From the NCBI GenBank assembly GCA_031267535.1, contig JAIRYS010000015.1, positions 1 through 41,109 on the forward strand: a DNA stretch of 41,109 nucleotides. Reading direction: 5' to 3'. The notes under the pieces were generated by a model that was given only the letters and a program-made list of their open reading frames with translations, was not told where the DNA came from and ran no database searches. Position numbers and translations under genes: made by a program. Shown one piece after another: positions 1 through 4,184 of this stretch. This DNA is from Holosporales bacterium. GTDB lineage: Bacteria > Pseudomonadota > Alphaproteobacteria > UBA3830 > JAIRWN01. How positions within the stretch are numbered: position 1 is the first letter of the stretch; each line of letters starts with the position of its first letter.

Positions 1-572
1 ATTCATATCCACCTCCGTTAATAAATTCATTTCAGATTGAAATGATTCGTCTGATGCAGGAACATGTTTGCCGAGGAGATTTTTAAACAAGACCAGTTCG
101 CAGAACTGACAATCGAGGAGGTCCTCTCGACCTCCGAGCCGCAGCTCAGGCTGCGTTGATGTAGCATTACGCTCATCAAACAAATCTTGGTGAACGCCCC
201 TTGACTGATGTGGCTCAGTATTAGACAAAGCGTCACACATACCACTTCTTACAAATGGCAGTGACAATTTGATCTGAGTTGATTGGGAAAGAGGCTTGTT
301 TAGATTTTGACTTAAGGAAGGCTGAACATTGACTATCTGACGAGCTGGGGGGGGGGGGTAGTCTTGTAACTGGCTGAATTGCTGGGTTTGATTGAGATCT
401 GAACTATTGTCTTATTTGCAATCTCTTGCCTATTAGTATTCGCAGTTGAAGCCGCTACTAATTCGGTGTTGTTACATGCCGCTCCGCTGTCTTTTCTTCC
501 CGCCATAGCTGCTAGAACTGCCTCCGTGTTACGTGATACTCCGCTTTTGCTTAAAACTTCTACTCCGACCAT
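1..572 (-). CDS. Hypothetical protein interrupted at a poly-C(12) tract; runs off the left edge of the window
   Basis: Minus-strand ORF with ATG at 572 preceded by GGAG (cgaGGAGtcagcgcaATG). The frame stops soon after the C12 tract (TPPPQLVR*), but another frame is open from the tract to base 1 (116 codons, PARQIVNVQPSLSQNLNK...LLTEVDMN). Confidence 0.55.
347..358. repeat. 12-nt homopolymeric G tract (C on the coding strand)
   Basis: Read directly: cgagct-GGGGGGGGGGGG-ta. The longest homopolymer I saw in the window. Confidence 0.95.
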
Positions 573-693
573 TGCGCTGACTCCTCGCTGAACATTTAAT
601 AACCCGAAGTCTTGCAATAAATAATTAATTTACAGTTAAAGCGTTATGTTGCTTTTAAACAATCCTCAAGACTATGCTTCTTAAACCCTCCAG

Positions 694-870
694 ACCGCCT
701 CTAGAGACCGTTTGTACTCTGATTAAGAGACTTTGGAAACTTCCACCGGGCATAGTACATTTCTAAAGCGCCTCTCTAGATCTCCTTCTGAAACCTCCGC
801 CCCTTAGAAACTAAGAGACTTCGGAAAAATAACCCATGCGTCGTGTTTTTTTAGAAGGCGCCCTAGATTT
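694..870. repeat. Imperfect direct repeats in non-coding DNA
   Basis: accgcctctagag (694), agcgcctctctagat (767) and ggcgccctagattt (857); also taagagactttggaaac (724) and taagagacttcggaaaa (812). Confidence 0.45.
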
Positions 871-1090
871 CCTTTTGCGACCACTTCACTCTGAAAATAT
901 CGCAAACAATGAAATAAAAAGATTTCTGTACTGGTTTTCAACGCCTAGTCCTAAAGATTAAATTGCCGAGTTAGATTTTTACTGAATCTACCTATCTTTA
1001 TAATAATTTCCCATTAGAAAAAGTTCATAATTACTTGATTTTTAATATATTATTAAAAAATACTTTAATTTTGATGCGAATTTTATTAAA

Positions 1091-2323
1091 ATGCATCAAT
1101 CGATTAATTGTAACAACAGTACAAGACTGATGAATAAATTTACAAAAAGTTTACTGAAGCTAAAGGCAGGATTTAGAAAGCCGAACAGCGCAAATGTTTT
1201 GGCTTTTAGCGACAACATGCCACCAGTATGGACGCCACGAGCTTATAAAAATTTAGCCAATGAGGGATATAAAAAGAACGTGATAGCCTACAGAGCCATC
1301 AATCTTATATCCCGCGGCATAGCTGCTGTGCCTTTGAAACTGTTCAGTTTTGGAACTGCGCTGACAAGCGGTGAACATATTGTCGCCAGCCTTTTGGATC
1401 ATCCCAACAGCGATCAAACCAGATCAGAGTTCTTGGAAACTTTGACTTGTCATCTGTTGATGTCGGGTAATGCATACATTTATTTGCACTACGAAGACGA
1501 CGTATTCCCAATCACCATGCATTTGCTTAGGCCAGATAGGGTGAAAATTAAAGCGGATAAAATGGGCAAGGTTACTGAATATGATTATGGTCAAAATAGG
1601 CAAATTCCCTCCTATTCAACCAAATTTAAAAGAAAGCAAGTTTTGCACCTTAAATTCTTTAACCCACTAGATGATTTCTATGGCCTGAGTCCCATTGAGG
1701 CCGCCGCGATAGCGATAGATCAATATAATGCCGTGTCGTCACACAATTTATCGCTGCTTCAGAATGGCGGCCGTCCTTCCGGCTGCCTCATTTTGAAAAA
1801 TAAAGAATTTATGACTGAGCAGCAAAAACAAGCTTTAAGGGCAAGCATAAAAAAATCATACGAAGGAGCGCTGAATGCCGGAAAGACGATGGTTCTTGAG
1901 GGTGATTTTGAGTGGAAGGAAATGGGTTTGTCGCCGAAAGACCTGGATTTTGTAACCGGGAAAACCTTCTCTGCCCGAGAAATATCGCAAGCCTTTGGGG
2001 TTCCGCCTATGTTGGTTGGCGTACCGGGAGACGCTACTTTTTCAAACTATCGCGAAGCGAGATATCACCTTTGGGAAGATACAATTTTGCCGCTGTTGGA
2101 TTACGTTCTAAGTCAGCTAAATGAAGCTCTTATAGACACAGGCGATCGTAACAATCTGGTTATTAGTTACAACGAGGACGAAATTTATGCTCTTTCGCTA
2201 AAGCGAGACAGCGTGTGGAAGCGCATTTCGGAAGCAGAGTTTTTAACCACTAACGAAAAGCGGCAAGCTTTGGGATTTGGTCCCATAGACGGCGGCGACA
2301 GTTTAGGAAAAATGCCCGATTAG
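1091..2323 (+). CDS. HK97-family phage portal protein (RcGTA g3-like)
   Basis: 410-aa ORF with portal motifs: NVIAYRAINLISRGIAAVPLKLF, LLMSGNAYIYL, FNPLDDFYGLSPIEAAAIAIDQYNA, GGRPSGCLI, AFGVPPMLVGVPG. ATG at 1130 is an alternative start. Confidence 0.93.
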   Translation: MHQSINCNNSTRLMNKFTKSLLKLKAGFRKPNSANVLAFSDNMPPVWTPRAYKNLANEGYKKNVIAYRAINLISRGIAAVPLKLFSFGTALTSGEHIVASLLDHPNSDQTRSEFLETLTCHLLMSGNAYIYLHYEDDVFPITMHLLRPDRVKIKADKMGKVTEYDYGQNRQIPSYSTKFKRKQVLHLKFFNPLDDFYGLSPIEAAAIAIDQYNAVSSHNLSLLQNGGRPSGCLILKNKEFMTEQQKQALRASIKKSYEGALNAGKTMVLEGDFEWKEMGLSPKDLDFVTGKTFSAREISQAFGVPPMLVGVPGDATFSNYREARYHLWEDTILPLLDYVLSQLNEALIDTGDRNNLVISYNEDEIYALSLKRDSVWKRISEAEFLTTNEKRQALGFGPIDGGDSLGKMPD

Positions 2324-2349
2324 ACACAATTTTTAAGAGGAGGAGCTCT

Positions 2350-2970
2350 GTGAAAACATATTTATCACCCGCGATTGACGCCGCTGAATTTACATGCGCT
2401 CAGAGACAATTTGCGATCAAAAGTCTGTCTGCGTCCGGTGAATTTCAAGGATATGCAAGCGTGTTCGACGTGGTGGATCAACAAGGCGACGTAGTTGAAA
2501 AGGGCGCTTTCAAAGACTGCCTTGAAAAAGCAAAAATCCTTGGAAGCTATCCAAAGCTTCTTTGGCAACATGACCAAAAGAAGCCAATAGGGCGCATTTT
2601 GGAGCTTAGAGAAGACAGGCACGGTCTGTTTATCCACGCCCAGCTTCTGTTGGAGGTGAAGCAGGCAAAGGAAGCATATGCTTTGCTTAAAAATAAAGCC
2701 ATAGAAGGTATGTCCATAGGATATAGGGTGATCAGATCAACCAGAGACTCAAAGACAAGTTCGGTGAGGCGCTTGCTTAAACTGGATTTACTGGAAGTAT
2801 CGCTTGTAACTTTTGCAGCCAATCCCAGGGCATGCATAACAGATGTGAAGTCCGCTGAGACAAGCGAGGCTGAAGCATGGTTGGCCGCCGACATACATCG
2901 CTTAGCGGCCATCATAAGGGGACTGACGTTTAATTCTAACAAGGAGGAAAGACATGAAATCGAATGTTAA
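2350..2970 (+). CDS. HK97-family prohead protease (RcGTA g4-like)
   Basis: FQGYASVFDVVDQQGDVVEKGAF...LLWQHDQKKPIGRI...IEGMSIGYRV...LLEVSLVTFAANPRA; preceded by gaggagg; GTG start. Confidence 0.93.
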   Translation: MKTYLSPAIDAAEFTCAQRQFAIKSLSASGEFQGYASVFDVVDQQGDVVEKGAFKDCLEKAKILGSYPKLLWQHDQKKPIGRILELREDRHGLFIHAQLLLEVKQAKEAYALLKNKAIEGMSIGYRVIRSTRDSKTSSVRRLLKLDLLEVSLVTFAANPRACITDVKSAETSEAEAWLAADIHRLAAIIRGLTFNSNKEERHEIEC

Positions 2971-4184
2971 TGAGGCATTGGACGGTCTATATAGCGCATT
3001 TCATGAGTTTAAAAGCTCAAACGGCGACAGACTTAACGAACTAGAGGAAAAGATAGCCGCTAAGAATCAAGCGGGCGGGCAAATGACAGACAGAGTTAAA
3101 AAGCTTGACGCCGTAATTAATAAGGCGGGGGCCAGATTACGCGAAATAAGCATGAAACAAAACGATAGAGAGGAGATCGTTATGAAACAACAAACCGACA
3201 ATAACCAAGAACATAAGCAAGCAATCGCAAATTACCTTCGTAAAGGCGATGATGCGTGTATCAGAGAAATCTGTACGAAAGCGGCGCTAAGCTCTGCTAC
3301 TGACAACATAGGCGGTTTTATTATGCCCGCTGAAGTCGTACACCAAATGAACAAGGCTTTGCATTCGACGTCATCAATGCGATCCATCGCACGGGTAACA
3401 ACGATATCAACCAGCGCGCTAGAGGTGCTTATTGAGAAAAAGCTGCCTAACGCTGGTTGGGCAAATGAAACCGACGCTAGAGATGAAACAGACGCCCCTG
3501 AACTAGAAAAAATCAGCATAGACGTTCACGCGATTTACGCCAAACCTAAGGCCAGTCAGCAGCTTCTGGACGACGGTAAGATAGATGTAGAAGAATGGCT
3601 TATGACAACCATTGCCGAAGAAAATCGCTGCTGTTGAGAATCAAGCCTTTGTCAATGGAGACGGCAACAATAAGCCCAAAGGCTTTTTGGCTTATGAAGG
3701 CGGGGACAAAGAATCGTGGGAATGGGGTAAGATTGAGACCATCAAGTCCGGGGCCAATGGAACCTTCGGCGATGATCCAGCCGGACTTATGATGGACGTG
3801 TTGGGTTCGCTTAAGCCACAGTACTTGCAAGGGGCAGTATGGGTTATGCCAAGATCTACCCTGGCCGAAGTTCGTAAGATTAGGGACAGAGATTCCGGTC
3901 GCTATCTTTGGACGCCAAATCTAGAACAAGCTTCGCCTTCCATTCTACTTGGATATCCAGTGGTGATTATGGACGATATGCCTGTTCTGGCCAATGGAAC
4001 CGCAAGTAAATCCGCGGCGTTTGGCAACTTTAAGTCTGGGTACCAGATTGTCGACAGACAAGAATTGCAAATCATTCGCGATCCGTTTTCAGCCAAACCT
4101 TTTGTCGAATTCTATGTAACAAAACGCGTAGGCGGCGCGATTGTTGACTTTGATGCAATCAAGATTGTGGATTTCTCAAAGTAG
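2954..4184 (+). pseudogene. HK97-family major capsid protein split by a 1-nt frameshift (frame 1 2954-3637; frame 2 resumes ~3612-4184)
   Basis: N-part contains SSATDNIGGFIMPAEVV...KPKASQQLLDDGKIDVEEWLMTTIAEE. C-part continues IAAVENQAFVNGDGNNKPKGFLAYEG...KSAAFGNFKSGYQIVDRQELQIIRDPFSAKPFVEFYVTKRVGG. Removing one A from AAAA at 3621-3624 fuses them. Confidence 0.9.

Follow-up and report, generated by a model that had tools for sequence, protein, structure and literature searches.

A poly-C tract as candidate contingency switch of an exported-protein gene in a tract-rich Holosporales genome

Introduction

The classical examples of contingency loci come from pathogens that face immunity. In Campylobacter, 91% of SSRs are poly-G/C tracts, which switch genes when eight or more units long (PMC6321876). 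The tracts described here are like those of Campylobacter jejuni and its relatives in that G/C homopolymers are many and A/T tracts few, and in that they shift the frame of surface and glycan genes and vary between strains and species; they differ in belonging to an unrelated Holosporales lineage with a reduced genome, in occurring as both G- and C-coding tracts, in being longer (9–18) and more often intergenic, and in coexisting with mutS (PMC6321876). Campylobacter is the closest model for the tract system considered below. A second parallel is with the opacity and haemoglobin-receptor type proteins of Neisseria, outer-membrane proteins that are frame-switched by a repeat within the ORF and whose copies are independently ON or OFF (PMC3786947, PMC3745409). 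Their counterpart here is a barrel family in genome G002; the proteins are not homologous, however, and the gene studied here has a long leader and repeat modules between the tract and the signal peptide.

A full-text search of open-licence PMC papers found none in which Holosporales and phase variation appear together, and the terms homopolymer, slipped and antigenic are all absent from a 2025 review of Holosporales. Homopolymer switching is itself a known mechanism; the Holosporales genus described here would employ it in dozens of genes, and our search turned up no earlier account of it for the lineage.

Results

We analysed a stretch of 41,109 nt (the window) that constitutes the entire contig C31 of a 0.86-Mb genome in 37 contigs (G000). 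An earlier note had described a minus-strand ORF that begins at ATG 572 behind a good Shine-Dalgarno sequence (SD) and is halted after a 12-C tract, and this is borne out: the ORF follows an AGGAG at 585-581, crosses the tract as PPP and ends ...SASYKTTPPPQLVR at a TAG at 335-333 (Table 1). The homopolymer is exactly 12 nt, G12 on the plus strand and C12 on the coding strand. The open frame that the note had placed between the tract and base 1 is also real, although it has 115 codons rather than 116; it reads ARQIVNVQPSLSQNL...EVDMN in a frame different from that of the leader. The two frames fuse, as had been proposed, at n = 1 mod 3; the tract lies within the leader ORF and exceeds the eight units taken as enough for slippage, an indel of one or two units would join the two open frames into a single product, and the assembled C12 is a non-joining length. 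The caveat that an ideal SD precedes an in-frame ATG at 6-4 holds as well: GGAGGTGGAT-ATG is in frame with the downstream piece, the exported protein probably starts there independently, and in the assembled phase the leader terminates 326 nt ahead of it. Base 1 is a contig end within repeated DNA, and the gene therefore cannot be followed leftward in the assembly. A promoter-consensus scan over 300-1150 yielded no sigma-70-like site on the minus strand, and a search of window 1-1200 against Rfam gave no match.

Table 1. Features of the window and of related tract loci in the genus
Feature	Position	Strand	Tract length	Remarks
GGAGGTGGAT-ATG, SD and in-frame start	4..16	-		EVDMN; compare EVNMN in G001, EVDMN in G000:C30
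Downstream open frame, 115 codons	1..345	-		leaves contig at base 1; C17 equivalent 225 codons
Dispersed stop-poor palindromic-type element	85..156	.		encodes LRLGGREDLLD...CQFCEL
Segment duplicated at G000:C17:480-1164	148..835	-		95% identical; holds tract, leader ORF and upstream region
Leader ORF, N-terminal piece	333..572	-		ATG 572-570 to TAG 335-333, 79 codons through tract; SD and ATG conserved in C17 and G001:C30
G12/C12 homopolymer	347..358	.	12	10 in C17 paralog, none in G001 ortholog
SD (AGGAG) of leader ORF	581..585	-		precedes ATG 572-570
Unassigned 485-aa ORF, methyltransferase-like C-terminal sequence			G000/G001 13/11	
C-methyltransferase			G000/G001 12/12	
Second methyltransferase			G000/G001 10/12; G002 10	
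rmlB-like dehydratase			G000/G001 12/12	
Formyltransferase			G000/G001 14/13	open in G000, broken in G001
PglD-like acyltransferase			G000/G001 14/16; G002 11	broken in G000, open in G001 and G002
G002 barrel loci				L211, L215, L216, L218, L220, L221, L222, L225, L232, L235

We consider it probable, though by no means assured, that the poly-C tract in this leader acts by strand slippage as a contingency switch for an exported surface-protein gene, most likely one of many contingency loci in a genus-wide phasome. The exported portion is seen in the paralog on contig C17, the sole paralog with the N-terminal part. Where the window has C12 and one further A, the paralog has C10; because the lengths differ by 3 nt, the two copies share the non-joining phase, and no joined (ON) copy of the window locus was found. 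In C17 the equivalent frame has no stop over 225 codons, up to where the contig ends; it runs through an SD-ATG (GAGG...ATGAAT), a hydrophobic stretch typical of a signal peptide, and ASLHNAFGTAMG, and it reaches the secreted-protein motif SLHNAFGTAMG, with leader and exported ORF in one common frame. The motif begins a family of exported proteins in the genus whose C-terminal parts vary and comprise an OmpA domain (Pfam) and weak beta-propeller-type and repeat-type sequences. A scan of a genome collection with the exported protein returned no relative.

In the congener G001 the syntenic locus (C30), upstream of the same portal gene, carries a 169-aa ORF that spans both halves with no tract, followed by a single in-frame stop and then by an exported ORF with SVYNAFGTNMG. 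A homolog across the tract position thus exists, in tract-free form, and the tract differs in length among homologous copies (12 C in the window and 10 in C17; G001 lacks it). All three copies (window, C17 and G001:C30) retain the leader start GCGAGGAGTNANNGCAATGG. Since the G001 ORF covers both halves and the leader start is conserved in three copies, the halves were probably a single frame until the tract appeared or expanded. Pfam returned no family for the leader piece, the downstream piece, the G001 169-aa ORF or the G001 exported ORF. Codon-position substitution patterns are near neutral. Window and C17 differ at 11 sites in each half, with no clear third-position excess, and the pattern in the N half is not significant (P=0.09-0.18). 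The downstream half compared with G001 is alone suggestive, in that amino-acid changes fall below random placement (P=0.003), a comparison that the protein-based alignment biases in the same direction. Stops interrupt the fragments on G001 C6 and C13 that are related to the downstream piece. Because there is no strong dN/dS signal, the coding status of the leader rests on its conserved start, its open frame and the spanning ortholog.

Loci of the same architecture occur in both phases. Barrel genes of G001 have their parts in the order of the window locus, from leader through tract and palindromic-element module to signal peptide. In L181 (C11) the leader is open to the barrel, and the stretch from tract to signal peptide has no start with an SD ahead of it; the related L185 and L240 are in a closed phase. 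On G000 C26 a C10 leader is in the open phase for 378 codons from a TTG start with SD. In G002, 10 outer-membrane-barrel paralogs each have an ATG, 27 nt and then a G tract, with lengths of 12, 13, 14, 14, 14, 15, 15, 16, 17 and 18 that represent all three phases; n=14 and 17 give the signal-peptide phase. Tracts at orthologous sites in G000 and G001 have flanks that are 82-87% identical and lengths that mostly differ; they fall in glycan-type genes, some with altered phase (Table 1). Only among sister loci and the remaining orthologous tracts do both ON and OFF phases occur; the two window-type copies are OFF. The earlier reading of the locus as a phase-variable layout in its OFF state agrees with the frames, with the tract-free ortholog that spans both halves and with these ON and OFF sister loci.

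The strongest competing explanation, which we regard as unlikely, is that the tract is a passenger, in which case the leader ORF would be a decaying remnant or an upstream peptide and the exported protein would be made constitutively from its own SD-ATG (6-4). Such a passenger would account for the ideal SD-ATG in window and C17, for the out-of-phase state of both copies, for the stop codon that separates the leader ORF from the exported ORF in G001 and for the near-neutral substitutions, but it leaves unexplained why the leader start and its SD are conserved in 3/3 copies and why leader and exported ORF lie in the same frame in C17 and, save for one stop codon, in G001. It also sits poorly with L181, where the same architecture offers no SD start downstream of the tract.

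To place the tract in its genomic context, we compared homopolymer counts from pattern searches of the genome with those expected from a first-order Markov model built from the window. The genome contains 49 G/C runs of at least 9, against ~2.7 expected, and because of this excess the window tract is not a chance occurrence; A/T runs number 6, against ~60 expected. Two congeners have 38 and 39 G/C runs of at least 9, and several further genomes of the same order are likewise tract-rich. Loss of mismatch repair as a source of the tracts is unsupported as judged by mutS, which is intact in this genome. Intergenic tracts make up 38-47%, versus 14-24% at control positions, and in-frame tracts occur in the linker of the GTPase Der (C10, G000:C29:20510-20519, L161) and in CheA (C17, G000:C36:103-112, L166), housekeeping-type genes in which switching is implausible. 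With tracts over-represented between genes and present in frame within der and cheA, some of the excess probably has no regulatory role. These same observations, together with the tract-rich genomes elsewhere in the order, are what would be expected if the genus neutrally expanded G/C homopolymers by mutational bias and the window tract had no function. We find this account improbable, given that A/T runs are depleted rather than expanded, that mutS is intact, that tracts are retained at orthologous sites in glycan-type genes and that their placement after the start is identical in the 10 barrel paralogs. As a separate observation, the position that holds poly-C in a similar G001 leader (C36) is occupied at G000:C30:75-101 (L062) by a dinucleotide repeat, (TC)n.

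That the tract as such is an artefact, arising from assembly or base calling in a short-read MAG, is very improbable: the window does end in a repeat and a G59 run at C2:32113 does join foreign-looking DNA, but both tract flanks are continuous with the C17 copy, with a 95% match across the tract, and independent MAGs bear tracts at orthologous sites. The G59 run (G000:C2:32113-32171; L067, L040) fuses cheA-like DNA of the genome to the foreign-looking DNA and is probably a two-colour poly-G assembly chimera. Since a true poly-G artefact occurs elsewhere in the assembly, the exact length of 12 should be read with caution.

Discussion

If the tract is the contingency switch that we favour, replication slippage would alter its C count. 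In one phase of three, ribosomes from ATG 572 would continue past the tract, translate the repeat modules and enter the exported protein that lies at the contig end. Either of the remaining phases would end translation soon after the tract, and the assembled sequence would represent an OFF phase. The joined phase would yield an N-extended exported protein or, alternatively, continued translation could protect the message and couple to the internal start. This model presumes variation of tract length in the population, translation of the leader and an effect of phase on the output of exported protein. With an SD-ATG just before the signal peptide in window and C17, the effect may be modulation (an N-extended isoform, or coupling or polarity across the 326-nt gap) instead of strict ON/OFF control, and the switch would have little effect if the internal start operates alone.

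A broader and more tentative proposal, about which we remain doubtful, is that one Holosporales genus, protist- or termite-gut-associated, has a large poly-G/C phasome with a distinctive gene plan, in which a short leader, a homopolymer and stop-poor palindromic-element modules precede a signal peptide, and the exported domain after it is interchangeable. The tract would then set how much exported protein is made, by way of either a very long N-terminal leader or translational coupling. Dozens of contingency loci in the glycan and outer-membrane genes of a 0.9-Mb symbiont lineage would suggest surface variation against the host cell, predators or phages, and a lineage-wide phasome would be a more interesting result than the single window locus.

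Palindromic-type elements lie both within ORFs and between genes, at window 85-156 and on G000 C17, C20, C22, C25, C26 and C36, with no Rfam family; such an element is found at about a dozen genome sites, many of them contig ends. They are reminiscent of Rickettsia palindromic elements (RPE), which are short, palindromic in type, dispersed both within ORFs and in the gaps between them, and can be read as protein. Being stop-poor, the elements may produce long open frames by accident and can contribute to the open frames seen here.

By its portal protein, the closest named relative is the Holosporales MAG JAIRWN010000019 (80% aa identity), and many other matches are also Holosporales MAGs; the sample codes of the MAG series presumably denote termite guts. 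We rejected the tract locus as a prophage gene, as it is absent upstream of the portal gene in JAIRWN010000019, where rpsL/rpsG/fusA are found, and family members are located elsewhere; a viral-contig scan with the N piece gave no match. Window 1091-4184 holds a cluster of GTA or prophage type, with genes for portal, prohead protease and capsid, that is conserved across Holosporales. In place of the 405 aa seen in L096, the capsid is represented there by a short frame of 227 aa (2954-3637) beside one of 190 aa (3612-4184), which suggests a frameshift.
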